Below, piece by piece: positions 25,307 to 41,650 of a DNA stretch of 64,000 bases. The stretch spans positions 1-64,000 of the forward strand of contig NZ_AFWT01000026.1 of NCBI RefSeq assembly GCF_000224065.1, in the 5' to 3' direction. The DNA comes from Thiorhodococcus drewsii AZ1 (GTDB lineage Bacteria > Pseudomonadota > Gammaproteobacteria > Chromatiales > Chromatiaceae). How positions within the stretch are numbered: position 1 is the stretch's first letter; every line of letters begins with the position of its first letter. The translations under genes and the position numbers were made by a program. A model generated the notes under the pieces. The model saw only the letters and a list, made by a program, of their open reading frames with translations. It was not told the DNA's origin and ran no database searches.

Positions 25307-26683
25307 GTGACCCAAACCCTGGCGCGTTATTCCAAGGTGATGGAAATCGTCGGCGACATCCTTAAGGTCCGAGTGCCGCCCACCTCGGGCGATCAGGCTC
25401 GCGTCGCCTTCGACGACCTGGCACTCGTCGAGGATCCGGGCGGATTCAGCTCGCTCGCCCGCGCCATCCGTCTCGACGACGATCTGGTTTCGCTCCAGGT
25501 CTTCGTCGGCACCAAGGGACTCTCCACAGAGGCATCGGTCCGATTCCTCGGCCACCCGATGCGCGTGACCTATTCGGCCAACATCCTGGGTCGGGTCTTT
25601 CGCGGCGACGGCGAGCCCTTCGACGCCGGCCCCGATCTCTCGCAGGACCCCAAGCTCGCGATCGGCGGGCCCTCGGTGAATCCGGCGAAGCGACTGCTCG
25701 CCTCCAAAATGATCCGCACCGACGTCCCCATGATCGACGTCTTCAACTCGCTGGTCGAAAGCCAGAAAATCCCTATTTTTTCGGTCGCCGGCGAGCCCTA
25801 CAACCAGCTGTTGGCCCGCATCGGCATCCAGGCCGATGCGGACATCGTGGTCTTTGGCGGCCTGGGTCTCATCTTCGACGACTATCATTTCTTCCTGCGC
25901 CGCTTCGAGGACGCCGGGGTCTTCGCCCGCACCGTCATGTTCGTCAACCTCGCCTCGGACCCCGTGGTCGAGCGCCTCCTGGTCCCCGACATGGCGCTTG
26001 CGGTGGCCGAGAAGTTCGCGGTCGAGGAAGGCAAACGGGTGCTGGTGCTGCTCACCGACATGACCGCCTATGCCGACGCCATGAAGGAGGTCGGCATCGC
26101 CATGGAGGCCGTACCGTCCAACCGTGGCTATATGGGCGATCTCTACTCCCAGCTCGCGCGCCGCTACGAGAAGGCCGCCGACTACAAGGACGGCGGCTCG
26201 CTGACCATCCTGACCGTCACCACCATGCCGGGCGACGACGTCACCCACCCGGTGCCCGACAACACGGGCTACATCACCGAGGGTCAGTTCTATCTGCACG
26301 ACGGCATGCTGGACCCCTTCGGCTCCCTATCGCGACTCAAGCAGCACGTCATCGGCAAGGTCACGCGCGAGGATCACGGCCAGATCATGAACACCATGAT
26401 CCGCTTCTACTCCAATGCCCGCGAGGCCGAGCAAAAACAGGCCATGGCCTTCGAATTGAGTGAGCTCGATCAGCAACTGCTGCGCTTCGGGCAACTCTTC
26501 CGCGAGCGCTTCATGGCGATCGACGTCAGCCTACCGCTGGAGAAGGCACTCGACCTCTGCTGGCAGACCCTGGCCGAGTGCTTCGAGCCCGAGATGCTGC
26601 TGATGAAGTCCGCGCTGATCGACAAATATTACCCACGCAAAGCGCAGGTTGGGGCTGAAACAGCCGACCTGAACGCGGCTTAG
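25307..26683 (+). CDS. ntpB: V-type ATPase subunit B (regulatory nucleotide-binding subunit)
   Basis: The 458-residue non-catalytic subunit of the V1 head alternates with subunit A. It lacks a P-loop, as expected, and keeps PMIDVFNSLVESQKIPIFS and the conserved PSNRGYMGDLYSQL and TMPGDDVTHPVPDNTGYITE regions. It starts at GTG 25,307 after GGAGGG. The gene is separated from the other V-ATPase subunits by a 7.3-kb block of five unrelated genes. Confidence 0.93.
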   Translation: MTQTLARYSKVMEIVGDILKVRVPPTSGDQARVAFDDLALVEDPGGFSSLARAIRLDDDLVSLQVFVGTKGLSTEASVRFLGHPMRVTYSANILGRVFRGDGEPFDAGPDLSQDPKLAIGGPSVNPAKRLLASKMIRTDVPMIDVFNSLVESQKIPIFSVAGEPYNQLLARIGIQADADIVVFGGLGLIFDDYHFFLRRFEDAGVFARTVMFVNLASDPVVERLLVPDMALAVAEKFAVEEGKRVLVLLTDMTAYADAMKEVGIAMEAVPSNRGYMGDLYSQLARRYEKAADYKDGGSLTILTVTTMPGDDVTHPVPDNTGYITEGQFYLHDGMLDPFGSLSRLKQHVIGKVTREDHGQIMNTMIRFYSNAREAEQKQAMAFELSELDQQLLRFGQLFRERFMAIDVSLPLEKALDLCWQTLAECFEPEMLLMKSALIDKYYPRKAQVGAETADLNAA

Positions 26684-26932: not shown

Positions 26933-29218
26933 ATGCCGCAGGTCGAGTTCAGGACCTCCCGCAGTTCGCTCGCGAGGGTCGACCTGATACCTGATATTGC
27001 GTATTCCATTGGAAGCGATGCAGGTAATTTGGTATCGATTGCAGGTTCCGGGGTACGACCGCTGCATGCGCATCTGTCGTTTCAAAATGGCGCAGCCTTG
27101 TTGGCACCACTCAAAGGCGCCCCGCTCTTCGTCAACGGCACGGCGATTTCCGCAGACACTACGCTATCAGACGGAGACTGGATCGCCTTCGGCGAAACTC
27201 TGATTCAGATCCGGCTTCCTGCTGTCGTCCCACACGGCGACAGCGATTCACAGGTAGTAGCCTCGCTAGGCGAGGATCAGTCCGGGAGCATTATCGTCGG
27301 TCGCGTGCCCGGCTGTGGATTGCCCATCCTTTCTCCACTGGTTTCGCGGGAGCACGCACGGCTCAGTCTCAGGCCAGACGGCGTCTTCGTGGAGGATCTG
27401 CGAAGCGTCAATGGCACCTGGGTCAATGGTGCACGTATCAAGACATTGACTCAGCTCACGCCAGGCGACCGAGTTGCATTCGCGAGCTTCGTGTTCGTTT
27501 TTACCGGCTCAGCCCTAGAGCCAGTGGACGCGAGCAATCGCATTCGGGTGATCGCGTCCGATCTCACCAAAACAGTAATCGACCGCACGACACGGCAACC
27601 CCGGCATCTGCTTAACGGCATTGGCCTGGTGATCGAGCCAGGCGAATTCGTCGTCATCTTTGGTACCAGCGGATCGGGTAAATCGACCCTATTGGATGCA
27701 CTGAACGGGCGTCGGCCGGCGTCCTCGGGCCAGGTACTCTACAACGACGTCGATCTCTATCGCTTCTTCGCTTTGTTTCGCTCGGGTATCGGCTATGTGC
27801 CGCAGCAAGACATTGTTCATCGCAAGATCAGTGTCCGCCGTGCGTTACGCTATACAGCACGCCTGAGATTGCCGCACGACACTTCGGCCCGAGAAATCGA
27901 CGCGATCATCGAGCAGGTACTGGAGCGAGTGGGGCTCAAAGAGAAGGCGGATCTCGCTGTGGATACGCCTGAGCCTCTGAGCGGAGGTCAGCTGAAGCGA
28001 GTCAGCTTGGCGGTCGAACTGGTTGCCAATCCGCATATCCTGTTCCTCGATGAGGCCACCAGCGGGTTGGATGCCGGTACCGACAAGCGGATGATGCGGC
28101 TGTTCGCCGACCTCGCAGGAGATGGTAAGACCGTCGCTTGCGTGACCCACAGCTTAGAGAACATCGACACCTGCCATCTCGTCGCCCTGCTGCATCGGGG
28201 GCAGCTGGTCTATTACGGACCGCCCGACGAGGCCGCGGCGCATTTCGGTGTGGGACGTCTTTCGGACGTTTACGAGGCCCTCGAGGGAACCGGGGGGCAG
28301 GACTGGCGGTCGCGCTTCGAGGGGTCGCCACAGCATCAGCGCTATGTCGAGCAGCGTCTCGAAAGCATTCCTTCGAAGCAGGCGCCCCATCATGCCGCTG
28401 GAGCCACGGGCGCTTCGTGGCGCCCCTGGAGGCTGCTAGATCTTCGTCAGATGGTGACCCTGACGCATCGCTACCTGGATCTGCTGCTCTCCGATCGCGT
28501 CAATCTCCTGGTTCTGCTCCTGCAGGCACCCCTCATCGCCCTGGTGGTCGGCTCGGTATTCCATACCGATGGCAGTCTGGCCGAGCGTGCCGCTGCTGAG
28601 AGCCAGATCGCCTTCGTGCTGGTCCTGTCCGCGATCTGGTTCGGCTGCATCAATTCCGCGCGCGAGATCGTCAAGGAATTGCCGGTGTATCTGCGCGAGC
28701 GTTCGGTCACCGTCACGCTTCCGGCCTACCTCTTAAGCAAGGTGCTGCCGCTATCCGTCCTCTGCCTGATCCAGGTGGCGAGCTTTCTGGCGATCGTCAC
28801 CTATATGCTGGATCTGAACGGATCCTTCCTCGATCGGCTGCTGACCCTCTTCCTGTCCGGATTCGCCGCCACGGCGATGGGACTGGCGGTCAGTTCCTTC
28901 GTCGACTCGAACGACAAGGCGATCGCGGCCCTGCCGCTCTTGCTGATCCCTCAGTTCATTCTCTCCAATTCGGTCGTCGCCCTGTCCGGAGCGACCGAGG
29001 ACTTGGCCAGGGTCGTCGTGATCGCCTATTGGGGCATCGACGCCATGCGTTCGACACTGGATCCGGAACTCTTGGCGCTTCGCGATTCCAACACCGGCAC
29101 GCCACTGATTCCGGTCGTTGGCGAATGGTCAAGGACCCTCTGGTATCTCCTTGCCCAGGCCGGTGGCTTCTTCGCTCTGACCCTGGTCGGCCTCAAGATC
29201 AAGGACCGGCGGGTGTAG
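26933..29218 (+). CDS. Double-FHA ABC transporter (ABCG-like half transporter)
   Basis: The protein has 761 residues. The first FHA-like domain (1-95) is degenerate and lacks the GR and SxxH pair. The second (about 108-195) is canonical: IIVGR, SREHARL, VNGTWVNG. An ABC ATPase follows (about 210-440) with Walker A GTSGSGKST, signature LSGGQLKR and Walker B ILFLDEATSGLD. Six C-terminal transmembrane helices form an ABC-2 permease. FHA domains bind phosphothreonine, and a Ser/Thr kinase gene follows 87 bp downstream, so kinase-controlled transport is the obvious model. The substrate is unknown; ABCG-like exporters of this shape handle lipids or other hydrophobic compounds. Confidence 0.9.
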   Translation: MPQVEFRTSRSSLARVDLIPDIAYSIGSDAGNLVSIAGSGVRPLHAHLSFQNGAALLAPLKGAPLFVNGTAISADTTLSDGDWIAFGETLIQIRLPAVVPHGDSDSQVVASLGEDQSGSIIVGRVPGCGLPILSPLVSREHARLSLRPDGVFVEDLRSVNGTWVNGARIKTLTQLTPGDRVAFASFVFVFTGSALEPVDASNRIRVIASDLTKTVIDRTTRQPRHLLNGIGLVIEPGEFVVIFGTSGSGKSTLLDALNGRRPASSGQVLYNDVDLYRFFALFRSGIGYVPQQDIVHRKISVRRALRYTARLRLPHDTSAREIDAIIEQVLERVGLKEKADLAVDTPEPLSGGQLKRVSLAVELVANPHILFLDEATSGLDAGTDKRMMRLFADLAGDGKTVACVTHSLENIDTCHLVALLHRGQLVYYGPPDEAAAHFGVGRLSDVYEALEGTGGQDWRSRFEGSPQHQRYVEQRLESIPSKQAPHHAAGATGASWRPWRLLDLRQMVTLTHRYLDLLLSDRVNLLVLLLQAPLIALVVGSVFHTDGSLAERAAAESQIAFVLVLSAIWFGCINSAREIVKELPVYLRERSVTVTLPAYLLSKVLPLSVLCLIQVASFLAIVTYMLDLNGSFLDRLLTLFLSGFAATAMGLAVSSFVDSNDKAIAALPLLLIPQFILSNSVVALSGATEDLARVVVIAYWGIDAMRSTLDPELLALRDSNTGTPLIPVVGEWSRTLWYLLAQAGGFFALTLVGLKIKDRRV

Positions 29219-29305
29219 CATGATTCCTGAACCTTTCATCGCCATCGGAGCCAGAGGCCGGAATTCCTCGGCCCCTCGTCGGGGTCCTCGGCGAGAAATG
29301 CCCTC

Positions 29306-31186
29306 ATGAGCGATTCTACCGAGACCAAACGGTGCCCCAAATGCGGGGCGACAAATCTGACCGAAGAACTGGCTAAGCGGGAATATCGTTGCGGTGACTG
29401 CGGCCTTGAACTCGCCCATCTAGATACCCTGTCGAATGGTGTCGTGCGAGGCGTGCTCGGCTGGTTGTTGGACATCGGCACCCTGGTAAACGACCGCTAC
29501 CGTGTCTCGGCCGTGCTGGGTAAGGGTGGCTTCGGCGTCACCTATCTGGTCGACGATCTGCGTCTGCATGGAAAACGCCGGGCGCTGAAGGAGGTCCCCG
29601 AGCTCTATTTCGACGAATACGAGACACGTCTGCTCGGCCGTCTGACGCACCCAGCCATTCCCGACATCACCGACCGCTTCAGCGCCGATGGCATGGTCTA
29701 TCAGGTGCTGGAGTTTGGCGGGGATCGTACGCTGCGAACCGAGCAGGAGCGTCGCGGTGGCCGCATCCCGCTGTTTGTACTGATGCCTTGGGTTCAGCAG
29801 TTATGCGAGGCCCTGCAGTACCTTCATGTCCAAGATCCGCCGGTGGTACACCGGGATCTCAAGCCGGACAACGTGCTGTTGGACGAGCATGAACGGGTGA
29901 TGCTGATCGACTTCGGCATCGCCAAAGAGGCGGCTACGGACACCATGACGCGGACCATCGGTCGCGCCGTGACCCAGGGGTTTAGCCCTCCGGAACAGGT
30001 ACTCGGCACCGGGACCGATGCCCGATCGGATGTCTATGCCCTAGGGGCCATCCTCTATTTCTGTCTCACGGGGCAGATGCCGCCCGCCGCCCATGAGCGT
30101 GTTACGGGCCGAGCCATTGAGCCGCTCTCGAACTTCCTGCCCGATATCCCGCCGCTCGTGGAATCGACGGTGATGCAGGCACTCGAGCTCAACATCAATC
30201 TTCGCCAGCAATCCATTCTCGAACTGGCTTCGGTATTCGCACTGATTCAATCCGGATCCGGCAGCGCGCAGACCGTTCTGGCCCCGGCAGGCGCAGAGCC
30301 CTCTGTCGATACGGGCGGCTATGCGTTGCCAAGCGTGCAGTTGCCTTCGGTTCGTACCGGAGCAGCTCCGACCGCGAACATCCAGGTCGGCCAACCATCG
30401 GTGGTCGAGTCCAGGCCGCGCCGGAGCGGTGCCCTGATTCTGGCCTCCATGCTGTTTCTGGGAGCGGCGGCAGCCGGTGGCTACTGGCTCTGGGGCGGGC
30501 ACACCCGCTCGTCTGAGCCCGAGGTTTCCAGTGGCGACTCAAAGCCCGGGTCGGACGCGGTCTCCGGAGGAGACGATACGGAAAGCGTGCCGGTGTCGCC
30601 AGCGCCTGCGACCCAGGCGCCGCCCCAGTCCCCGAGGCCGTCTGGAAAGACGACCGCCGATGCGTCGACGGAAAATTCGAAGACAGCACAGGTCTCTGCC
30701 GGGACGCCTCCGGCGGCCTCATCTCTGCCATCCGTTTTTTCCGACGAGGAGCCCCAGGCGGATCAGCGCTCTGCCGAGGCCACCAAGCCTAAGCAGAGCC
30801 TGATGGAGCTATTCGAAACCCTGCGCAGCGCCTCGACGCCTCCGGCTACGGACAGTCCCGACCAGTTGCCCGCCCTAATTCCAGCGGTTGCGCCATCCAA
30901 ATCCAAGACTGGGTTGCTCCCAGACGCCGCTCCAAAGACCGCCAATGAGCCCGACGCCGTAGCTGACCCCAAGGTGACCACGGCGCCCACGCCCAAGGCA
31001 ACCACCACGCCGAAAGCGACCACCAAGTCAACCATAAAAACCACACCCAAGACGGTGACAAGATCCAAGCCGACACCCAAGAAGGTGACGAGATACAAGC
31101 CGAAGCCGAAACCGCGTCCGAAGCCGAAGACTAGCCGCTCGAGCGATTGGGGCTTCCAGTACAAAGGTGCCAGAAAGACCGATTGA
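29306..31186 (+). CDS. Zinc-ribbon Ser/Thr protein kinase with one membrane helix and polybasic tail
   Basis: The protein has 626 residues. Cys10-X2-Cys13 and Cys29-X2-Cys32 form an N-terminal zinc ribbon. A Hanks-type kinase spans about 64-325: glycine loop GKGGFG, Lys in RALKEV, HRDLKPDN (His182) and DFGIAKE. A membrane helix (ALILASMLFLGAAAAGGYWL) near 380-400 leads to a Pro/Ser/Thr-rich extracytoplasmic region, ending in Lys/Thr/Pro repeats (KATTTPKATTKS; KPKPKPRPKPK) that could grip anionic envelope polymers. It is the fourth-from-last gene of the block and the likely phosphodonor for the FHA proteins at 26,933 and 40,430. Confidence 0.9.
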   Translation: MSDSTETKRCPKCGATNLTEELAKREYRCGDCGLELAHLDTLSNGVVRGVLGWLLDIGTLVNDRYRVSAVLGKGGFGVTYLVDDLRLHGKRRALKEVPELYFDEYETRLLGRLTHPAIPDITDRFSADGMVYQVLEFGGDRTLRTEQERRGGRIPLFVLMPWVQQLCEALQYLHVQDPPVVHRDLKPDNVLLDEHERVMLIDFGIAKEAATDTMTRTIGRAVTQGFSPPEQVLGTGTDARSDVYALGAILYFCLTGQMPPAAHERVTGRAIEPLSNFLPDIPPLVESTVMQALELNINLRQQSILELASVFALIQSGSGSAQTVLAPAGAEPSVDTGGYALPSVQLPSVRTGAAPTANIQVGQPSVVESRPRRSGALILASMLFLGAAAAGGYWLWGGHTRSSEPEVSSGDSKPGSDAVSGGDDTESVPVSPAPATQAPPQSPRPSGKTTADASTENSKTAQVSAGTPPAASSLPSVFSDEEPQADQRSAEATKPKQSLMELFETLRSASTPPATDSPDQLPALIPAVAPSKSKTGLLPDAAPKTANEPDAVADPKVTTAPTPKATTTPKATTKSTIKTTPKTVTRSKPTPKKVTRYKPKPKPRPKPKTSRSSDWGFQYKGARKTD

Positions 31187-31223
31187 GGGTCAACGACCCT
31201 GGATTCACACAGGAGACACAGCG

Positions 31224-32384
31224 ATGAAAAACCGTTTGTCACGATACAAGGGTAGGTCCGGTCCCCAGTTGTTAGCCGTGTTGCTGGCTGCCGCCTCCAT
31301 ATTTCTCAGCACCTCAGTCGGTGCCCAGGGTTACGGCTTTGCCGCCCCAGGCAACTACGGGGTGAAGATCTACAAAACCGACTACACGCTCTATCCCTTC
31401 GTGCAGGTTTATCTGCGTACCTTCGATTCGCAGATGCAGCCCCTGGTCAATCTCAATGAGATGAATGTAGGTCTGATGGTCAAAGGGCGGCCCTATGATC
31501 CCTTGAAGCGTCAGTTCGGAATTCAATCGATCCGCAAACGCGAGGAGGCGACGCGCTCGGTGATCGTGGTGGATGCGAGCAAATCCATGGCTGGTAAGCC
31601 CTTCGATGATTCGCGGAGAGCGGCGGTGCGCTTCATCGAGAGCAAGAGACCGCAGGATGAGGTCGCCATCTTGGCCATCCGCGATACCAAGAACGGCTTC
31701 GATCTGGTTTCGGAATTCGAGCGCGACGGTACCGCACTCGTGCGGCGTCTCAATGACATCAAGCCTGACGGACTGAAGACGCGGCTTTTCGACACCATTG
31801 GTGCGGCGATGCAGATGTGTGCCATGAGCGGCCAGGGATCCGTACGCACGGGCCACTACATCGTATCATGCTCGATCTTGGTCATGTCCGACGGCAAGGA
31901 TGAAGAGAGTTCCATCCGCCGCGACGAGCTCATGACGCGAATCTCCAATCTCGAGATCCCCATTCCAATTTATTCACTGGCCTATTCCAAGATCGATCAG
32001 AGCCATTTCAAAAATCTGGAGGCGCTTTCGAAGAATTCGTTCGGAATCTATTATGTGGTCGGAGAGACCACCGAGCGAATGCAGCGAATCGTCGAGCAGG
32101 TGCAGAACATCATTCAGAGCGACTATGTCATCACCTTTCGCTCCTATATCGAGCCGGATGGCGAACGCCACAATCTGAAGGTCGGTATCGAATTCCCGAG
32201 TGGCAGTGGCAAGTACATGAGTGACGACACCTATTTCGAGGCCATCCAGCCGCCGCCGATCGCACCCATCCAGAAAGCCCTCAAGGCACTGAATCAGAAG
32301 ATTCCTCCAGTCCCGAGCGGAAATCCTTATTGGGAGACTTCCGACTCCGCAATGTCGATACCAACGGGTACCCCTGCCCAATGA
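31224..32384 (+). CDS. Exported von Willebrand factor A domain protein
   Basis: The 386-residue protein starts at the ATG following AGGAGACACAGCG; the frame opens upstream at 31,167 inside the kinase stop region. A signal peptide (LLAVLLAAASIFLSTSVGAQ) precedes a vWA domain from about residue 105, with MIDAS motif DASKS in VIVVDASKSMAG and a later MSDGKDE. Metal-dependent protein binding in the periplasm is predicted. It lies 37 bp after the kinase gene. Confidence 0.87.
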   Translation: MKNRLSRYKGRSGPQLLAVLLAAASIFLSTSVGAQGYGFAAPGNYGVKIYKTDYTLYPFVQVYLRTFDSQMQPLVNLNEMNVGLMVKGRPYDPLKRQFGIQSIRKREEATRSVIVVDASKSMAGKPFDDSRRAAVRFIESKRPQDEVAILAIRDTKNGFDLVSEFERDGTALVRRLNDIKPDGLKTRLFDTIGAAMQMCAMSGQGSVRTGHYIVSCSILVMSDGKDEESSIRRDELMTRISNLEIPIPIYSLAYSKIDQSHFKNLEALSKNSFGIYYVVGETTERMQRIVEQVQNIIQSDYVITFRSYIEPDGERHNLKVGIEFPSGSGKYMSDDTYFEAIQPPPIAPIQKALKALNQKIPPVPSGNPYWETSDSAMSIPTGTPAQ

Positions 32385-32475
32385 CCCGGCCTCTGCGCTG
32401 GAGCAATGAGCCGGATGGCTTCAATGGGAGCAATGGATCGAGAAACAGCATGGTCGAATCGTCAGGAGCATGGAA

Positions 32476-33102
32476 ATGAAGGGGATGCAGAGAATCGGGT
32501 TGGCCACTGCATTGGCTGCGGGAACGGTGATCGCGTCAGGATGCAGTTCGACGGGGAGTATGCAGGACCAAGCGATAGGCACCACGATCGGTGCAGCCCT
32601 AGGCTGCGGGGTCGGAGCCTTGATTTCGGGAGACGCCAAAGGCTGTGCCGCCGGCGCTGCCGTAGGCGCCGTGGTGGGCTTTGGGAGCGTCGTCATTTCA
32701 CAATACAACGCCCGCCAAGTCCGTTCGGCCTCAAAGGATGCCAGGGTCTACGGCCTGAGTACCGCGCCGTCCAGCCCCCAGGTCAAGATACGGAAAGGGA
32801 AATCTTCGCCACGGACCGTCAGGCACGGTGATCCGGTGAACATCAGCACGGACTATTCCCTGACCTTGCCGAAGGGGGTAAGCAAAGCGCGGGTCACCGA
32901 AAGCTGGGTTCTGAAAAAAGACGGAAAGAAGGTCGCGAAGCTGCCGTCTAAATCCGCCTCGAGGGCACCCGGAGGCTGGGTGGCCGATGCCGAGATCAGC
33001 ATTCCTTCCGATGTGCCGACGGGCACTTATCTAATCGAGCACCGTGTCCAAGTGGGCAGCAGCTATGATGTCGACGAGTCGACCTTCGTCGTTCGGAGCT
33101 GA
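32476..33102 (+). CDS. Glycine-zipper lipoprotein
   Basis: The 208-residue protein starts at ATG 32,476, seven bases after AGGAG; ATG 32,470 lies too close to it. A lipoprotein signal ends at ASGC (TVIASGCSSTGS). A glycine-zipper membrane segment (IGTTIGAALGCGVGALISG; AAGAAVGAVVGFG) is followed by a beta-rich C-terminal domain ending THE-like in DVPTGTYLIEHRVQ. Such proteins insert into or tether the outer membrane. It is the fourth gene of the kinase block. Confidence 0.83.
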   Translation: MKGMQRIGLATALAAGTVIASGCSSTGSMQDQAIGTTIGAALGCGVGALISGDAKGCAAGAAVGAVVGFGSVVISQYNARQVRSASKDARVYGLSTAPSSPQVKIRKGKSSPRTVRHGDPVNISTDYSLTLPKGVSKARVTESWVLKKDGKKVAKLPSKSASRAPGGWVADAEISIPSDVPTGTYLIEHRVQVGSSYDVDESTFVVRS

Positions 33103-33146
33103 AGCGTGCCCATTCCCTCCACTCGGGTGACGGCCGGGGACTGACC

Positions 33147-33845
33147 GTGAGTCTGTCCCTGGCTGGTTTATGGCTACTTGGTGGGCTTCTGGGCGGTGGC
33201 GACGAGACCGGAGATTGCAGCGCATCCGCGCAAGCAGGCGCACGCACCATGCAGCGGATCGCCGAATCATGGCCGCTTCGGTTTGCAGGCGATCCGGTCA
33301 GACGTTATGTTCTGCGCCTGGGGCAGAAGATCGTGGCGCAGGTCGATCCGCATCATGTCGACGATTGGCGTTTCTTCGTTGTTCGTAATTTGGAGCCTAC
33401 AGCCTTTGCCGTCGGTGGCAACCGGTTCGTCGTTAGCGACGGACTCATCGCTTTCGTGAGAAACGAAAGCGATCTCGTCGCTGTTCTGGCTCATGAGATC
33501 GCCCATCAACGCCTGAGACATTTCTGCGACCAAGCCCCAACCGATGCCAAACGGATCCGTTACGGTTCCATTGTGCAACACTTCGATCTTGATACAGAAC
33601 GCGCGGCAGATGCGGAGGCCGTCCGTCTACTTGAATTAGCGGGCTACGATTCCTGCTCCATGTACGAGGTTCTGCGATGCCTTTCGGAACGACCTGGAGC
33701 ACCGGTATCGCAGCTACAAGCGCGCATGCGCTCGCTCAAGTCTTCGTGCACCAATCGTGCAAATATGCCCCATATTGGGGAGTTAGAGGAGATCCGCAGT
33801 CATATTCTTGACGAGTCGGGAACCCCTATACAACGCTGTCGATAA
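33147..33845 (+). CDS. M48-family metallopeptidase
   Basis: The 232-residue protein starts at GTG 33,147 after a GGGGA site. HEIAHQRLRHF contains the HExxH zinc motif, and the third ligand is the Glu of DTERAADAEAV (ExxAD), as in M48 enzymes such as BepA/YcaL, which act on misassembled outer-membrane proteins. The N-terminus is hydrophobic and may be a signal sequence; Cys24 in GDCSAS is not a good lipobox. It closes the block and is followed by a strong hairpin. Confidence 0.87.
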   Translation: MSLSLAGLWLLGGLLGGGDETGDCSASAQAGARTMQRIAESWPLRFAGDPVRRYVLRLGQKIVAQVDPHHVDDWRFFVVRNLEPTAFAVGGNRFVVSDGLIAFVRNESDLVAVLAHEIAHQRLRHFCDQAPTDAKRIRYGSIVQHFDLDTERAADAEAVRLLELAGYDSCSMYEVLRCLSERPGAPVSQLQARMRSLKSSCTNRANMPHIGELEEIRSHILDESGTPIQRCR

Positions 33846-33859
33846 GTCAAGGATCGAAC

Positions 33860-33892
33860 AATCATCCCCTGGCAGAACGCCAGGGGATGATT
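33860..33892. terminator. Perfect 14-bp hairpin closing the kinase block
   Basis: AATCATCCCCTGGC and GCCAGGGGATGATT pair perfectly around a 5-nt loop, 15 bases after the protease stop. The flanks are AT-rich but lack a long U run. It separates the inserted block from the V-ATPase D-I-K-E-X-A genes. Confidence 0.75.
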
Positions 33893-33966
33893 ACTTGAGC
33901 GTTACCCTGAAATCCCGGAGACCCAGCGCCAAGAAACTTTTCTAAACCGATTCAAATAGTTGAACA

Positions 33967-34005: not shown

Positions 34006-34611
34006 ATGGCCCGGCTGAGCCTGAGCAAATCCTCGCTGACCAAACAGACTCGCCAGCTCCAGACCTTCGAGCGCTTTCTGCCCGCGCTCGACCTCAAACG
34101 CAAGCAACTGATGACCGAGCGCGCCAAGGCGCTGCAAGCCCGCGAGGACACTCTGGCCGCCATCGCCGCGCTGCGCGAGGAGGTCCGGGAACGCCTGCCG
34201 ATGCTCGCCCATCGCGAGATCCCGCTCGACGATCTGGTCCATCTCAAGGGTGTGCGTCTCGGCGAGGAGAACCGCATGGGCACCAAGCTGCCGGTGCTGC
34301 TCGGCGTGGATCTGGAAACGACCGATTACGGTCTCATGGTCCAGCCGCACTGGGTCGAACCGCTGGTCGAGGCCATCGGGCGCATGCTGGAACTGCGGGT
34401 CCGTCTGGCGCTGGACGAACAACGTGTCGCGCTTCTGGAAACGGCGGTACGCAAGGTCACTCAGCGGGTGAATCTGTTCGATAAGGTGCTGATCCCACGC
34501 ACTCAGCAGAACATCAAGACCATCCGTATCTATCTCTCGGATGCCGAGCGCGCGGCCGTGGTGCGCTCCAAGATCGCCAAGGCCAAGCGCCATCGCGAGA
34601 CGACGGCATGA
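34006..34611 (+). CDS. ntpD: V-type ATPase subunit D (central rotor shaft)
   Basis: The 201-residue coiled-coil protein has long N- and C-terminal helices (LSKSSLTKQTRQLQTFERFL; VNLFDKVLIPRTQQNIKTIR) that form the rotating stalk inside the A3B3 head. The motif VNLFDKVLIP is diagnostic. AGGA precedes the start. The stop overlaps the start of subunit I (ATGA). Confidence 0.92.
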   Translation: MARLSLSKSSLTKQTRQLQTFERFLPALDLKRKQLMTERAKALQAREDTLAAIAALREEVRERLPMLAHREIPLDDLVHLKGVRLGEENRMGTKLPVLLGVDLETTDYGLMVQPHWVEPLVEAIGRMLELRVRLALDEQRVALLETAVRKVTQRVNLFDKVLIPRTQQNIKTIRIYLSDAERAAVVRSKIAKAKRHRETTA

Positions 34612-36413
34612 GCATTCTCCCACTCGCTCGACTGACCCTTGCCGGGCTGACCCAAGAGAAGCACACCGTGCTCGAACGGCTGCAGACACTCGGCTGTCTG
34701 CACCTGTTGCCATTGAGCCCCGCGCCCAAGGAGGCCGAACGCGCCCCGCCGGCGCACGCGGTGGAAACACGCAAGGCGCTACGCTATCTGAGCGACCTGC
34801 CGGACAAGCGTCGCCAGGTCCGCCTGGCGCCGGACTTCGACATCGCCCGCACGACCCGTACGGTGCTCGACAATCAGCAGCGTCTGCGCGAACTGACCGA
34901 CCGACTCGACGGACTGCGGCAACGTCTGAGCGAACTCGAACCCTGGGGCGATTTCAGTCTGCCCGCCGAGGACGCACTCGCCGGACGCAAGCTCTGGTTC
35001 TACATCGTGCCCGAGCGTCAGATACCCGCGCTCCAGTCCCTCGACCTGCCCTGGCAACTGGTGCATCGCGATCAGCGCCACGCCTGGGTGGTGGTAATCC
35101 ATCCCGAGGAGCCACCGCACGACGCCTTGCCGGTTGCACGCACCCATACGGGCGCCCTGTCACTCTCGGCGATTCGCCGTCAAGCCGAGGAAGCCGAACT
35201 CGCACTGGAGGAGGTTCAAGCGGAGCGCCATGCGCTCACGCGCTGGATCTATCTGATGTCGAGCCATCTGGCACAGGCCGAGGACCAGGCGAGGCTGAGA
35301 TTCGCCGAGACTCAGACCCTGGACGACGCATCGGTCTTCCTGGTGCAGGGTTGGGTAGCCGAGCGCGACATCCCCAAGGTACGCGCGCTCGCCGAGACCC
35401 TCGGGCTCGCGCTGATCCTGGACCCGCCCGGCCCCGACGATGCACCCCCGACCCTGCTCGACAACCCGCCCGCCATTGCTGCGGGACAGGATCTGGTCGG
35501 CTTCTACCAGATGCCGGCCTATCGCGCCTGGGATCCCTCGCGGGTGCTCTTCTTCTCGTTCACCCTCTTCTTCGCCCTCATCCTGTCGGACGCGGGCTAT
35601 GCTGCGGTCCTGGGGCTGCTACTCGCCGCCTATTGGCGTCGGCTTGGACGCAGCGATTTGGGACAGCGGATGCGCTTGATGGCTTTGGCACTGACCTCGA
35701 CATCGTTCGTCTGGGGCGTGCTGCTCGGCAGCTACTTCGGCCTCTCGCCGCCGGCCGACAGTCTTCCAGGACAACTCAAGCTGTTCGAGATCCAGGACTT
35801 CGACAGCATGATGAAACTCTCAGTGGGCATCGGGGTGCTGCATCTGGTGCTCGCCAATGCCGAGATGGCCCTGATCCATCGCGGACGCGCCACCGGCCGC
35901 GTCGCCCTGTGTTGGATCGCGGCCCTGGTCGGCGGCTTCGCCCTCTGGCTCGGCAGCGACCGGCCATCGGGACACTGGCTGTCCATGCTGGGTCAGGTGC
36001 TTGGCATCGGTGGTCTGATCGGCGTCTTCCTGCTCGGTAGCGACCGCCGCGTCGAGGATATCCGCTCGTTCGCGCTGCGCGTCCTGGACGGACTGGCACA
36101 GCTGGTCAAGGTTACCCAGGTGTTCGGCGACGTGCTGTCCTATCTGCGACTGTTCGCGCTCGGACTCGCCTCGGCCTCGCTGGCCATCACCTTCAACGAC
36201 CTCGCCCGCCAGGTGGCCGCGAGCCATCCCGGCGTAGGGCTGCTCATGGCCCTGCTCATCCTCCTCGTCGGCCACCTGCTGAACCTGGCGCTCAGCCTCA
36301 TGAGCGGCGTGGTGCACGGACTGCGTCTGAACTTCATCGAGTTCTACAACTGGGCGCTATCCGGCGAGGGTTATCCATTCAAGCCATTCAAGAAAGCGGA
36401 GCTAGGCGAATGA
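34608..36413 (+). CDS. ntpI: V-type ATPase subunit I (membrane stator, a-subunit)
   Basis: The 601-residue protein has a soluble N-terminal half with coiled coil and seven to eight C-terminal transmembrane helices that form the ion half-channels. The Arg of FGDVLSYLRLFALGLASASL is the conserved residue facing the proteolipid carboxylate. At 601 residues it is slightly shorter than the archaeal and enterococcal forms. It overlaps both D and K by ATGA. Confidence 0.92.
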   Translation: MSILPLARLTLAGLTQEKHTVLERLQTLGCLHLLPLSPAPKEAERAPPAHAVETRKALRYLSDLPDKRRQVRLAPDFDIARTTRTVLDNQQRLRELTDRLDGLRQRLSELEPWGDFSLPAEDALAGRKLWFYIVPERQIPALQSLDLPWQLVHRDQRHAWVVVIHPEEPPHDALPVARTHTGALSLSAIRRQAEEAELALEEVQAERHALTRWIYLMSSHLAQAEDQARLRFAETQTLDDASVFLVQGWVAERDIPKVRALAETLGLALILDPPGPDDAPPTLLDNPPAIAAGQDLVGFYQMPAYRAWDPSRVLFFSFTLFFALILSDAGYAAVLGLLLAAYWRRLGRSDLGQRMRLMALALTSTSFVWGVLLGSYFGLSPPADSLPGQLKLFEIQDFDSMMKLSVGIGVLHLVLANAEMALIHRGRATGRVALCWIAALVGGFALWLGSDRPSGHWLSMLGQVLGIGGLIGVFLLGSDRRVEDIRSFALRVLDGLAQLVKVTQVFGDVLSYLRLFALGLASASLAITFNDLARQVAASHPGVGLLMALLILLVGHLLNLALSLMSGVVHGLRLNFIEFYNWALSGEGYPFKPFKKAELGE

Positions 36414-36856
36414 ACGAATTCGTGATCGCCCTGGGTTGGGCGGGCCTCTATGGGGTCATGGCGCTCTCGGCCATCGGCAGCATCATAGGCTGCGCGGTCG
36501 CGGGCCAGGCGGCGATCGGGGCCATGGTGGATACCGAATCGGGCTACGGCCGCTATATCGGCATCTCGGTGATGCCCTCCTCTCAGGTCATCTATGGCAT
36601 CGTGGTGATGTTCACCCTGCAGCGCCCGGTCACGCCGGAGACCGGACCGGCGCTGTTCGGCATCGGACTGTTCGCCGGTCTGGCGCTCATGATGTCGGCG
36701 GTGCGCCAGGGCCAGGCCTGCGCCTCGGCGATTCACGCGAGCAAGACCAAGCCCGAGATCTTCGGTCTCTCGCTGGCGCCGGCCGCCATCGTCGAGGGCT
36801 TCGCCGTCTTCGCCTTCGTCTTCGCCCTGGTCATGGCCGGCGGCATCCCCGGCTGA
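36410..36856 (+). CDS. ntpK: V-type ATPase subunit K (proteolipid ring)
   Basis: The 148-residue protein has four transmembrane helices, that is two c-type hairpins. The ion carboxylate is Glu129 (AAIVEGFAV). By alignment to Enterococcus hirae NtpK from memory, the Na+ site residues Thr64, Gln65, Gln110 and Glu139 correspond to Ser58, Gln59, Gln100 and Glu129, and the gating Tyr68 to Tyr62. Only the backbone ligand Leu61 differs (Met55). A Na+-binding ring is therefore predicted, though not proven. It overlaps the subunit I stop by ATGA. Confidence 0.92.
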   Translation: MNEFVIALGWAGLYGVMALSAIGSIIGCAVAGQAAIGAMVDTESGYGRYIGISVMPSSQVIYGIVVMFTLQRPVTPETGPALFGIGLFAGLALMMSAVRQGQACASAIHASKTKPEIFGLSLAPAAIVEGFAVFAFVFALVMAGGIPG

Positions 36857-36879
36857 CACCATCGCGGAGGAATAGCGAC

Positions 36880-37581
36880 ATGGCGGCAAGCACACAGAAA
36901 AGCACTCAGGATCTGGCCTCATCCGGCGTCGAGGCCCTGATCGAACGGCTGCGCGACGAGGGCGTCGCGAGCGGACGCGCCCAGGCCGAGCAGATCGCGG
37001 CCGAGGCCAGGAAACAGTCCGACCAACTGATCCAGGAGGCGGAAGCACGCGCACGCACGATCCTTGAGTCGGCACGCCTAGAGGCCGAATCGCTCAAAAA
37101 GGGTGGCGAGGAGGCCCTGCGCATCGCCATGCGCGACACCGTGCTGCGACTCAAGGCCGAGCTCTCCGACCGCTTCAGCGACGAGGTGAAACGGCTCATC
37201 GCGGCCGAGATGGAACAGGAGACCTTCATCGAGCGGCTGATCCTGGAGGTCGCCGGCCGCGCCCGCCAGGAAACGGGCATCGATTCGGGCCAAGCGGTCG
37301 AGATCCAATTGCCCAAGGCCCTGGTCGGACCCGAGGAACTGCGGCGCAATCCGCTGGAGCTGCGCGAGGGATCGCTCTCGCACTTTGTGCTCTCCCTGGC
37401 CGGCAACGTCCTCGCGGAGGGCGTCACCTTCTCGGTCGACAAGACGGACGCGCGCGGAATCCGGCTCTATCTCAGAGACAAGGACGTGCATATCGATCTG
37501 ACCGACGACAAGGTGGCCGCGATCCTGCTCGCGCATCTGCAGCCCAGGTTCCGCGCCATCCTCGAAGGCACCGTCAAATAG
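36880..37581 (+). CDS. ntpE: V-type ATPase subunit E (peripheral stalk)
   Basis: The 233-residue protein has a long Ala/Glu/Arg-rich N-terminal helix (EQIAAEARKQSDQLIQEAEA) and a mixed C-terminal head, typical of the E stator subunit. The start at 36,880 follows GGAGG; the same frame is open upstream inside subunit K. It is longer than the approximately 200 residues usual for E. Confidence 0.85.
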   Translation: MAASTQKSTQDLASSGVEALIERLRDEGVASGRAQAEQIAAEARKQSDQLIQEAEARARTILESARLEAESLKKGGEEALRIAMRDTVLRLKAELSDRFSDEVKRLIAAEMEQETFIERLILEVAGRARQETGIDSGQAVEIQLPKALVGPEELRRNPLELREGSLSHFVLSLAGNVLAEGVTFSVDKTDARGIRLYLRDKDVHIDLTDDKVAAILLAHLQPRFRAILEGTVK

Positions 37582-37593
37582 GATCCAGACACC

Positions 37594-38295
37594 GTGCCGG
37601 ACTCCCATCGCTATGCCATGCTGCTGAACGCCCTGCCCTATCACGGGCCGCTGTTCGGCGCCAAGCAAACGCCCTTGTCGCGCTTTCGACTGCACCAGCG
37701 ACTGGTCCAGCTTGAGCCGGCCGATGCCTCCGATATCGCCATCCTCGGCCAGCTCCTCGACTGGACCCATCAGGACACGAGCCGCTCCGACGAGCAGGCT
37801 ATGTCCGAGGCGAAGCGCCAGGTCGCCGAGATCGCCAACCCCTTCGCGCACGATCTGGCCGTTTGGAGACTGGAACTGCGGACCCTGATCGCCGCGCTGC
37901 GTCGACGTCGGCGCGGCGACCTAGCGCCAGAGAATAACCGTTGGGGCTATGGCCGCTGGACCGACAAGATCCGACGCAACTGGACCGAGAGCGCCTTCGG
38001 ACTGCAAGGCGTCTTCCCCTGGCTACCCGAGGCCGCCCGAATGATCGCGCTCGGTGACGCGCTCGGTCTGGAGCGACTGCTGCTTCAAACCGTCTGGAAT
38101 CACCTGGAAGGCATCAGCGGGGGACATCATTTCGATTTCGAGGCGGTCGTCGTCTATGTGACACGCTGGGATCTGATCGCGCGCTGGACCAGCTATCAAG
38201 ACGAGGGCGGGCTTGAGCGCTTCGATACGCTGGTCGCGCACGCCATGGCCGATGTCGATCTGGGGCGCATGATCGAGACCGAAATCGCTTCATGA
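37594..38295 (+). CDS. DUF2764 protein, V-ATPase-associated (putative C-like subunit)
   Basis: The 233-residue helical protein starts at GTG 37,594. DUF2764 proteins occupy the slot between E and A in chlamydial, spirochaetal and Bacteroidetes V-ATPase operons and are thought to replace the C subunit. The C-terminal stretch FDFEAVVVYVTRWDLIARW is characteristic of the family. No separate subunit C, F or G gene is visible here. Confidence 0.78.
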   Translation: MPDSHRYAMLLNALPYHGPLFGAKQTPLSRFRLHQRLVQLEPADASDIAILGQLLDWTHQDTSRSDEQAMSEAKRQVAEIANPFAHDLAVWRLELRTLIAALRRRRRGDLAPENNRWGYGRWTDKIRRNWTESAFGLQGVFPWLPEAARMIALGDALGLERLLLQTVWNHLEGISGGHHFDFEAVVVYVTRWDLIARWTSYQDEGGLERFDTLVAHAMADVDLGRMIETEIAS

Positions 38296-38427
38296 GCCAG
38301 AGCCTCGGTCGACATAGAACGCCAACCGAACCGGGATCGACAGAATGACGCGGGATGAGCCGAATCCGAAGTCGCCTTTGGACATCCCCTGCATGCACGA
38401 TCAACGACGAACGATTGCGGAAACACC

Positions 38428-40287
38428 ATGAGCATCCAAGCCCCAGACACTCACCGACCCGATAGCCCCGCCCGGGTCATCTCCGTCCAGGAGAGCCTGG
38501 CGACCATTGAGGCCGGCTGGAAGGATGGAGCGCGCCTGGCGCTGAAGAAAAACGAGGTGGTCTTCATCGAACCCGACCGCCCAAGCGCGGACGGGCGTCA
38601 GGAGCAGCTCAAATCCGAGGTGCTGCGGATACGCGGCGATCTGGCCGACATCCAGGTTTTCGAGGACACCCGCGGCGTCTCCATCGGCGATCCGGTCACC
38701 CAGACTGGCGAGATGCTGTCGGTGGAACTCGGACCCGGTCTGCTGGGCGAGATCTACGACGGGCTACAGAACCCGCTCGAAACGCTCGCCATCCAACACG
38801 GCGTTTTCCTGCCGCGCGGGGTCGATCTGGAGGCGCTCGATCGCAACCGCAAATGGTCCTTCGTCCCCAGCGTCCAGCACGGCGCCAAGCTCCAAGCCGG
38901 CGGCGTGCTCGGCACCGTCCAGGAAGGCATCTACACCCACAAGATCATGGTGCCCTTCGACGAGCCAGGCGAGGTTGAGGTCACATGGATCCAGGAAGGC
39001 AGCGTGACCGTGGACACCCCGGTCGCGCGCATCCGCAATCACCAAGGCCATGAGCGCTCGCTCGACCTGACGCGGCGCTGGCCGGTGCGCCGTGCCCTGA
39101 CCGAAACCATGCTGCGCGCGCGAACCGTCGAGCGACTCTATCCCGACGCGCCCCTGACCACGACCATCCGGCTGATCGACACCTTCTTCCCGATCGCGCG
39201 CGGCGGAACCGGCTGCATCCCCGGACCCTTCGGAGCGGGCAAAACGGTGCTTCAACACCTACTGGCGAAGCATTCCGGGGTCGACATCGTCATCGTCGTC
39301 GCCTGTGGCGAGCGGGCCGGCGAGGTGGTCGAGACCATCGCCGAATTCCCCCAGATCCGCGATCCAAAAACCGGCGGATCGCTCATGGACCGCACCATCA
39401 TCATCTGCAATACCTCGTCCATGCCGGTCGCCTCGCGCGAGGCATCCATCTACACCGGCCTGACGCTCGGCGAGTACTACCGCCAGATGGGCTATCAGGT
39501 GCTGCTGCTGGCGGACTCCACCTCGCGCTGGGCGCAGGCGATGCGCGAGACCTCGGGGCGTCTGGAGGAGATCCCTGGCGAGGAGGCCTTCCCCGCCTAT
39601 CTGGATTCGGCCATCCGAGGTCTCTACGAGCGTGCCGGCGTCGTCCGCAGCACCGATGGCTCGACCGGCAGCCTGACACTGATCGGCACCGTCTCGCCGG
39701 CCGGCGGTAACTTCGAGGAGCCGGTCACCCAGTCGACGCTGGGGACGGTCAAGTGCTTTCTGGGGCTCTCCTACGACCGCGCCTACAAGCGCTTCTACCC
39801 GGCCATCGACCCGCTCATCTCCTGGTCGCGTTATCTGAAGCAACTCGCCTCCTGGTACGCCGAAAATCTGGACCCGACCTGGAACGAGCGGGTCGAGTCC
39901 ATGCAATCGCTGCTCGAACGCGGCGATGCGGTCCAGCAGATGATGCAGGTCACCGGCGAGGAAGGCATCACCACCGAGGACTATGTCGAACTCCAAAAGG
40001 CCCAACTGCTCGACATGGTCTATCTCCAGCAGGATGCCTTCGACGCAGTCGACGCCTCGGTGCCTCTGGAACGCCAGCGCCTGACCTTCGACCTGCTTTG
40101 CGCCCTGATCGAGCGCGATGAGCGGTTCGTGGACAAGAACGCCGCACGCCAGCACTTCACACGGCTCACCAATCTGTTCAAGAATCTCAACTACGCGGCG
40201 ACGGACACACCCGACTTCGAGCGTCTGCTGCAAGAGATTCGCGCGATGGTGACCGGCAATGAACCGCACGCAGACATCGACCGCTGA
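38428..40287 (+). CDS. ntpA: V-type ATPase catalytic subunit A
   Basis: The 619-residue catalytic subunit has P-loop GPFGAGKTV, the catalytic Glu region ACGERAGEV and LLADSTSRWAQAMRE. The roughly 90-residue non-homologous insertion (VEVTWIQEGSVTVDTPVARI region) separates it from F-ATPase beta subunits. It is preceded by a 132-bp gap after DUF2764 and is the last subunit gene of this run; the gene expected next (B) lies at 25,307. Confidence 0.95.
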   Translation: MSIQAPDTHRPDSPARVISVQESLATIEAGWKDGARLALKKNEVVFIEPDRPSADGRQEQLKSEVLRIRGDLADIQVFEDTRGVSIGDPVTQTGEMLSVELGPGLLGEIYDGLQNPLETLAIQHGVFLPRGVDLEALDRNRKWSFVPSVQHGAKLQAGGVLGTVQEGIYTHKIMVPFDEPGEVEVTWIQEGSVTVDTPVARIRNHQGHERSLDLTRRWPVRRALTETMLRARTVERLYPDAPLTTTIRLIDTFFPIARGGTGCIPGPFGAGKTVLQHLLAKHSGVDIVIVVACGERAGEVVETIAEFPQIRDPKTGGSLMDRTIIICNTSSMPVASREASIYTGLTLGEYYRQMGYQVLLLADSTSRWAQAMRETSGRLEEIPGEEAFPAYLDSAIRGLYERAGVVRSTDGSTGSLTLIGTVSPAGGNFEEPVTQSTLGTVKCFLGLSYDRAYKRFYPAIDPLISWSRYLKQLASWYAENLDPTWNERVESMQSLLERGDAVQQMMQVTGEEGITTEDYVELQKAQLLDMVYLQQDAFDAVDASVPLERQRLTFDLLCALIERDERFVDKNAARQHFTRLTNLFKNLNYAATDTPDFERLLQEIRAMVTGNEPHADIDR

Positions 40288-40429: not shown

Positions 40430-41650
40430 ATGACATCTGCAACGTCCAATACCGAGCTATCGGCACAGTCACGCATCGCCTCGATCGGCAAGCTCAACTA
40501 TCTGGACTTCTTCGGACTCGCTGAGCCCCCTTTCCGCAATGCCTCCGACATCGCCAAACTCTTTCTCAACGGCCCCCTGACCGAAGCGCAGGCGCAATTC
40601 GATACCGCGCTGGACAGTCGGGAGGGCGGCATTCTGGTCGTGAATGGCGCACCGGGCTCGGGCAAGACCACCCTGGCCAATCGGATCGCCGACCGGCGCA
40701 GCGAGACCAATCGGGTCGCCAAAATCAATCGCACCCAGCTGTCGGAAGACGAATTCCTGCAAACACTGCTGCAAACCTTCGGATTGCAGTCGGCAGGACT
40801 CACGCCGGCCCAGTCGTTGAATCGGTTCAGCGATTTCCTGCATAAGCAGGAGAAGGCCGGCAAGGGCGCGATCCTGGTCCTCGACGAGGCACAGAACCTC
40901 AAGCCCGGGGTGCTGGAACTGCTGCCGAGCCTGCTGCGGCCTCACGACGAGATACGTCCGGGGTTCTTCATCATCCTGATCGGCCAGGACGGTTTTGAAC
41001 AGTCGCTGGTCATGCACGGAAGCAGACAGCTGAAGGAAATGATCCTCTTTCAGATCTATCTGTCCAAGTTGGGCACCACCGATACGGCCGCCTACATCCG
41101 ATATCAACTGACCGCGGCCGGCCTGAAACGGAGGATACCGTTCTCCGATGGAGCCATGTTGCGCATCCATCAGCTCACCGGCGGCAGCATGCGATTGATC
41201 AACACCCTGTGTGATTTCGTGCTGTTCAACGCCAGCATGGGCCAGATACACCACATCACACCGGACCTGGTACAGACCACCTTCAACGCCCTGCAATGGG
41301 ACCCGTCGAGGGATACGGCCGTAGAAGCGGCCGCCGCCAAGCCGAGCGCCAATGGAAGCATACCGACGCTCATCCTCGAATTCCGCGAGGACAGCGCCTT
41401 CCAGCTCGATCAGGAAACCGTCACCATCGGGCGTGCCACCGACAACGACATCTGCATCCGCGACCTACGCATCAGTCGCTATCACGCGAAACTCACCACC
41501 AGCCGCAAGGGAATCTCGATCGAGGATCTCGGCAGCACCAACGGGGTGTATGTCAACAAGGAGCGCGTCAAGGTCCGGTTGCTCCAAGACGGCGATCTGA
41601 TCGGCATCGACGAACACCGGATACGCTTCGAAAACCGCCATCCGGCTTGA
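40430..41650 (+). CDS. ExeA-like AAA ATPase with C-terminal FHA domain
   Basis: The protein has 406 residues. The N-terminal part is an ExeA/TniB-type AAA ATPase (YLDFFGLAEPPFRNASD; Walker A NGAPGSGKTTLANR; Walker B ILVLDEAQNL). Residues about 310-405 are a canonical FHA domain (TIGRATDNDICIRD; ISRYHAKL; LGSTNGVYVNK). The FHA end would read phosphothreonine made by a kinase such as the one at 29,306. ExeA relatives help assemble envelope secretion machines or act in transposition; no such machine or transposase is nearby. It follows the subunit A gene by 142 bp. Confidence 0.88.
   Translation: MTSATSNTELSAQSRIASIGKLNYLDFFGLAEPPFRNASDIAKLFLNGPLTEAQAQFDTALDSREGGILVVNGAPGSGKTTLANRIADRRSETNRVAKINRTQLSEDEFLQTLLQTFGLQSAGLTPAQSLNRFSDFLHKQEKAGKGAILVLDEAQNLKPGVLELLPSLLRPHDEIRPGFFIILIGQDGFEQSLVMHGSRQLKEMILFQIYLSKLGTTDTAAYIRYQLTAAGLKRRIPFSDGAMLRIHQLTGGSMRLINTLCDFVLFNASMGQIHHITPDLVQTTFNALQWDPSRDTAVEAAAAKPSANGSIPTLILEFREDSAFQLDQETVTIGRATDNDICIRDLRISRYHAKLTTSRKGISIEDLGSTNGVYVNKERVKVRLLQDGDLIGIDEHRIRFENRHPA

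Follow-up and report, generated by a model that had tools for sequence, protein, structure and literature searches.

Do the five co-directional genes at positions 26933-33845 of the window (the whole 64,000-nucleotide stretch of Thiorhodococcus drewsii AZ1 that we analysed) form a single system and, if they do, what is it for? The genes encode an FHA-FHA-ABC exporter (FHA-ABC), a zinc-ribbon Ser/Thr kinase, a periplasmic vWA protein, a glycine-zipper lipoprotein (Gzip), and an M48 protease (Table 1). An initial annotation, made from the DNA alone, had read them as one signalling chain from the cytoplasm to the outer membrane, had known of no named system with this exact gene set, and had guessed at a kinase-gated envelope device. 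The coordinates, strand, and domains that it gave for the five ORFs agree with the ORF list and with Pfam/NCBIfam, and we found no paper with the five-gene set in open-licence PMC full text. The inverted repeat that follows the M48 gene is a possible transcript end for the module.

Table 1. Features of the five-gene module, in window coordinates.
Feature	Position	Strand	Basis
FHA-FHA-ABC exporter, 761 aa	26933..29218	+	FHA, FHA, ABC_tran, ABC2_membrane (Pfam)
Zinc-ribbon Ser/Thr kinase, 626 aa, one TM helix, long low-complexity outer tail	29306..31186	+	
Kinase TM helix, aa 377-395	30434..30490	+	hydropathy
Kinase tip DWGFQYKGA, aa 614-622, candidate docking motif	31145..31171	+	conservation
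T323-V-L 3' of kinase domain, candidate autophosphorylation/FHA2 ligand site	30272..30280	+	inferred, motif recurrence
Secreted vWA protein with MIDAS residues, 386 aa	31224..32384	+	Pfam, signal peptide
Gzip lipoprotein, 210 aa; lipobox Cys25, zipper ~aa 36-70, C-terminal Ig-like domain ~aa 104-209	32470..33102	+	
M48 metalloprotease, 232 aa, HEIAH, four invariant Cys	33147..33845	+	
Inverted repeat directly 3' of M48, no T run	33849..33903	+	

The complete arrangement is present in 12 genomes, the window genome included (G000, G121, G035, G037, G101, G012, G088, G102, G938, G394, G237, and G319). Nine of these belong to the window genome's own GTDB family and three to other gammaproteobacterial families. 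(In the G319 assembly, the vWA gene falls into two frames.) Two more genomes, G022 and G486, are consistent with the module order, with both copies cut by contig ends. Across the fetched loci, FHA-ABC, kinase, vWA, Gzip, and M48 follow each other in identical order and strand, and the flanks differ between genera. When we searched genomes of the same taxonomic order with the vWA protein, 11 of 147 gave matches; with the kinase, 17 of 210 had such a kinase, and this search added G938 with all five genes. Among 368 other genomes of the class, four had such loci; they come from four further GTDB families, keep the order up to the contig ends, and have M48 proteins with only ~29-34% identity. A related-locus search with the kinase as query returned only Imhoffiella purpurea, and in the phylum samples (398 genomes, with few candidates scored per genome) an FHA-ABC or vWA protein of the module type was found only in the window's own genome.

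Because the same order is kept in several families, with M48 identity down to ~29% and with unrelated flanks, it goes beyond chance. The pairwise divergences of the five proteins also correlate strongly (r 0.82-0.99, from pairs that are not independent). The co-occurrence of the five families that the initial annotation proposed to look for is therefore that of an ordered block and not of routinely scattered genes; the exceptions are a reduced form (two genomes, genus g34) and a variant (two genomes, genus g12). The module is real, block-conserved, and rare, and the proposed layout from cytoplasm to outer membrane is supported. A search for upstream motifs as exact 12-base words found none common to the genera (only the window and L007, from Imhoffiella purpurea, have a common upstream stretch), and no palindromes were found in the window.

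A rare kinase system with so patchy a distribution in the order and class might also be a competition or anti-phage defence module, triggered by envelope attack. Generic PADLOC matches exist for the kinase and ABC domains, but such matches are expected of any domain of these kinds, and nothing in PADLOC-DB 2.0.0 matches vWA, Gzip, or M48. Relatives of the vWA protein were not found in viral contigs, and in plasmids there were weak matches only. We consider a defence function improbable.

In the window, the module interrupts a V/A-type ATPase operon (25307-26683 and 34006-40287; B-D-I-K-E-DUF2764-A) and separates subunit B, which ends at 26683, from subunit D, which starts at 34006. In four loci from relatives (L055, L057, L058, and L059), the operon B-D-I-K-E-C(DUF2764)-A is uninterrupted and has no module, and in L055 (genome G915) it continues with genes for AAA-FHA, cysC, and DUF2333, in exactly the order of the window. 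It follows that the window carries a five-gene insertion between B and D. The sister genome, I. purpurea (G121; loci L007 and L060), has the module, AAA-FHA, cysC, DUF2333, and a GGDEF gene on one contig, and only distant homologues of ATPase subunit A (~41-44% identity) were found in it. No direct repeats were found within either insertion junction taken by itself. As the genome is a draft, an assembly error at the insertion point is conceivable; the ~100 bases upstream of the module that are common to the window and L007 speak against it.

This comparison also removes a gene from the system. At 40430-41650, the window encodes an XrtA-associated-ATPase-like AAA ATPase that carries an FHA domain at its C-terminus; the initial annotation had noted it downstream as a sixth FHA protein, and we considered it as a possible sixth member. 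In relatives (L055 and L056) this gene adjoins ATPase subunit A, so it belongs to the ATPase/cysC neighbourhood. Could the module, placed between subunits B and D, be a regulator of its host ATPase operon? Relatives carry the operon without the module, and the fetched flanks of the other module genomes are without V-ATPase genes, so this is refuted as a general function. A private effect in the window strain is possible, and to the reading as a whole we give almost no credence.

The initial annotation had described the transporter as reading phosphothreonine, which fits one of its two FHA domains. FHA2 (aa 120-183) is canonical and retains GR, SRxH, and NGT. In seven aligned homologues, FHA1 has GS or GC in place of GR and no SRxH, and because these binding residues are missing, it is unlikely to read phosphothreonine. 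The ABC ATPase (aa 227-377) is closest to the ABCG/pigment-permease group, and the ABC2 membrane domain occupies aa 506-707.

The kinase has a zinc ribbon (CPKC...CGDC) and a Pkinase domain with intact catalytic motifs, and a T-[VIM]-x motif recurs at the position of T323 in the compared kinases. Beyond the membrane helix, the tail is Pro/Ala-rich and often Lys-rich, with 133-245 residues across homologues (~230 in the window kinase). Between genera, its main stretches are 10-14% identical, and aa 473-506, in mid-tail, form a weaker motif. The tip at its end is 85% identical over ten kinases (consensus WGF[QKE]Y[KR]GA); outside the home family, only one Trp near the kinase end is conserved. 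Downstream of its module, G319 encodes another zinc-ribbon kinase from this subfamily (L040 270-1433).

Genomes that depart from the standard arrangement bear on what the tail and its tip might do. G054 and G108 have the FHA-ABC and kinase pair and then small lipoproteins (one or two) that belong to an unnamed family, and the vWA search of the order found no vWA protein of the module type in them. Their kinases share a different C-terminal tip, Y[TN]xxQ[IL]RA[IL]K[DR]FNxM. In G054 the kinase tail carries PG_binding_1, and for this reason we think that the tail is probably extracytoplasmic. (The variant loci lie at L085 7041-10388 and L086 8804-11450; the kinase tail with the peptidoglycan-binding domain is the one in L085.) In G089 and G091, the module locus is reduced to FHA-ABC and vWA. 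Gzip is absent from these two genomes, M48 has only weak generic matches and none of the module type, and the kinase, located elsewhere in the genome, ends without the tip. The two remaining genes are under purifying selection (dN 0.10 and dS 1.42 for FHA-ABC; dN 0.12 and dS near saturation for vWA), and this pattern suggests that they are a separable sub-unit.

The joint loss of the tip with Gzip and M48, and the swap of the tip where other lipoproteins are encoded, suggest Gzip and/or M48, and not vWA, as the docking partner of the tip. This is a lead and not a proof, as there were about two independent losses or swaps. One locus counts against the association: a 4.2-kb contig of G895 (L082 379-4161) has a module-type kinase that keeps its tip, as WGFQYKGS, and whose gene is directly followed by an unrelated gene for a molybdopterin oxidoreductase. 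More broadly, the partner of the tip could be M48, Gzip, vWA, or peptidoglycan.

The reduced locus can be taken another way. FHA-ABC and vWA persist as a pair, with purifying selection on both, in loci that have lost the other genes, as would be expected if an export route across the envelope, for one of its lipids or polymers, were built or maintained by FHA-ABC, vWA, Gzip, and M48. In that case the kinase would only tune the exporter, and its tail would be a structural tether rather than a sensor. The grouping of the ABC domain with ABCG/pigment permeases agrees with this, as does the precedent of Rv1747, a proposed glycolipid exporter (PMC5549992). However, an exporter-centred reading alone leaves unexplained the sharp conservation of the tip and its loss alongside Gzip and M48. 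We regard it as unlikely, although far from negligible.

The vWA gene probably starts at the ATG at 31224 and not at the GTG at 31167, because homologues begin at the signal peptide conserved there. Its MIDAS residues are DxSx[ST], T186 (nearly invariant), and D223. No sequence relatives were found in the PDB at E 0.01, and AlphaFold2 with two sequences gave no usable model (pLDDT 30). The closest NCBIfam model, TIGR03436, describes acidobacterial VWFA-type proteins that are likewise secreted, but the module protein scores 34 bits against a cut-off of 81 and is encoded in a kinase operon. Another known association, the TerY-P triad, consists of a vWA protein, a PP2C phosphatase, and a kinase; the TerY-type vWA is cytoplasmic, whereas the module vWA has a signal peptide. 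We saw a PP2C gene adjoining the module only in L037 (the Pfam scan covered few of the other flanking genes), where it follows a distant module copy (L037 6084-8339 and 15576-18261) with two flanking SPFH/Band-7 genes and a zinc-ribbon protein. G022 has a second vWA paralogue (L029 9529-10686), with no FHA-ABC or kinase upstream and with the contig ending downstream; before it comes an ORF of 569 aa that matches no Pfam family and has a weak codon signal.

Gzip has a lipobox with an invariant Cys, and its glycine-zipper matches are weak, all under the Pfam cut-off. As a general rule of the Lol system, lipoproteins without Asp at +2 are sorted to the outer membrane. Gzip has no Asp at this position and so is expected to go there. 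Its sequence relatives in the PDB are only weak glycine-rich matches. AlphaFold2 with two sequences predicts the C-terminal domain as an Ig-like sandwich (block pLDDT 81-91 over aa 121-210), and a fold search returned many unrelated Ig-like domains (Z ~10-11), which is generic and gives no functional lead.

The M48 protein has, besides HEIAH, an invariant Glu downstream, and it is probably periplasmic, given that distant homologues have ordinary signal peptides. BepA-type periplasmic proteases, its best NCBIfam match, also have an M48 domain with HExxH. The module protein scores 59 bits against a cut-off of 570 and consists of the M48 domain only, without the C-terminal TPR domain of BepA; it also has the four invariant Cys and is encoded within the module. 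By both the equivalog score and the missing TPR domain, it does not qualify as BepA.

Our preferred reading, which we put forward tentatively and as somewhat short of probable, is an ABC exporter that stands alone, is gated by a kinase, and has an arm for sensing the envelope. What we observed is the gene set, its order and co-inheritance, the catalytic motifs, the lipoprotein and secretion signals, the conservation of the tip, and its association with the Gzip/M48 cassette; from these we infer the contacts, the signalling direction, and what the module does. The kinase would sit in the inner membrane, with its Pro/Ala-rich tail spanning the periplasm and its tip docked on Gzip and/or M48 at the outer membrane, where it would report the state of the outer envelope. 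A change in docking would lead the kinase to autophosphorylate, with T323 in the TVL motif as the candidate site. FHA2 of the transporter would bind the resulting phosphothreonine, and the ABC exporter would be switched. The MIDAS-bearing vWA protein would be the transporter's periplasmic partner (a substrate acceptor or a gate), and M48 may trigger or reset the signal by turning over the lipoprotein or the tail. The original guess of a kinase-gated envelope device is thus the best inference, not a result.

A broader proposal, which is doubtful, is that FHA-ABC and the kinase are the core of a plug-and-socket platform. The short docking motif at the end of the tail would be interchangeable: whenever the envelope cassette changed (vWA-Gzip-M48 or other lipoproteins), the motif would change with it, and a single core could read different states of the outer envelope.

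If the kinase-gated exporter is real, it would give Gram-negative bacteria a Ser/Thr kinase pathway that leads from the outer envelope into the cytoplasm, is independent of the type VI secretion system (T6SS), is complete in five genes, and has an FHA-gated ABC exporter as its direct output. The conserved tip makes an otherwise featureless tail a one-step test of envelope sensing by such kinases.

Two known systems are close in design. The first is the TagQRST-PpkA-Fha pathway of the Pseudomonas aeruginosa H1-T6SS, which has an outer-membrane lipoprotein, a periplasmic protein, an ABC transporter, a kinase, and an FHA reader and which senses outer-membrane damage (PMC11881912). TagQRST-PpkA-Fha-PppA and the module have similar parts and a common logic, from outer-membrane lipoprotein to kinase to FHA domain. 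The initial annotation had suggested a comparison with T6SS PpkA/Fha loci, and the resemblance in working principle stands, but membership does not. VipB (PF05943) is present in 4 of 15 module genomes and absent from the other 11, and no T6SS genes were recognised adjoining the module. That the module is a threonine-phosphorylation pathway of this type, controlling T6SS firing, is largely refuted, and we give it hardly any weight. It also differs in that the FHA domains are fused to the transporter, the vWA domain is a separate protein, and an M48 protease is added. For PppA, the PP2C phosphatase of the pathway, the one counterpart seen beside the module, among the flanking genes scanned with Pfam, is the PP2C gene of L037.

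The second is Rv1747-PknF of Mycobacterium tuberculosis, the precedent for an FHA-ABC exporter modulated by the kinase encoded in its operon (PMC3908365). Both exporters have two N-terminal FHA domains, an ABC ATPase, and an ABC2 membrane domain in one chain, and both are encoded beside a membrane Ser/Thr kinase that presumably sets the exporter through FHA. FHA I of Rv1747 binds pT237 of Rv2623 (PMC5549992), whereas FHA1 of the module lacks the residues for binding phosphothreonine. With GS or GC in FHA1 and no SRxH, we do not class the module transporter as a strict orthologue of Rv1747, and only the architecture is in common. The module also belongs to a Gram-negative envelope, with three added envelope genes and a zinc-ribbon kinase that has a conserved tip. 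By analogy with both systems, its design would join a core of the Rv1747/PknF type to a sensing arm like that of TagQRST-PpkA.
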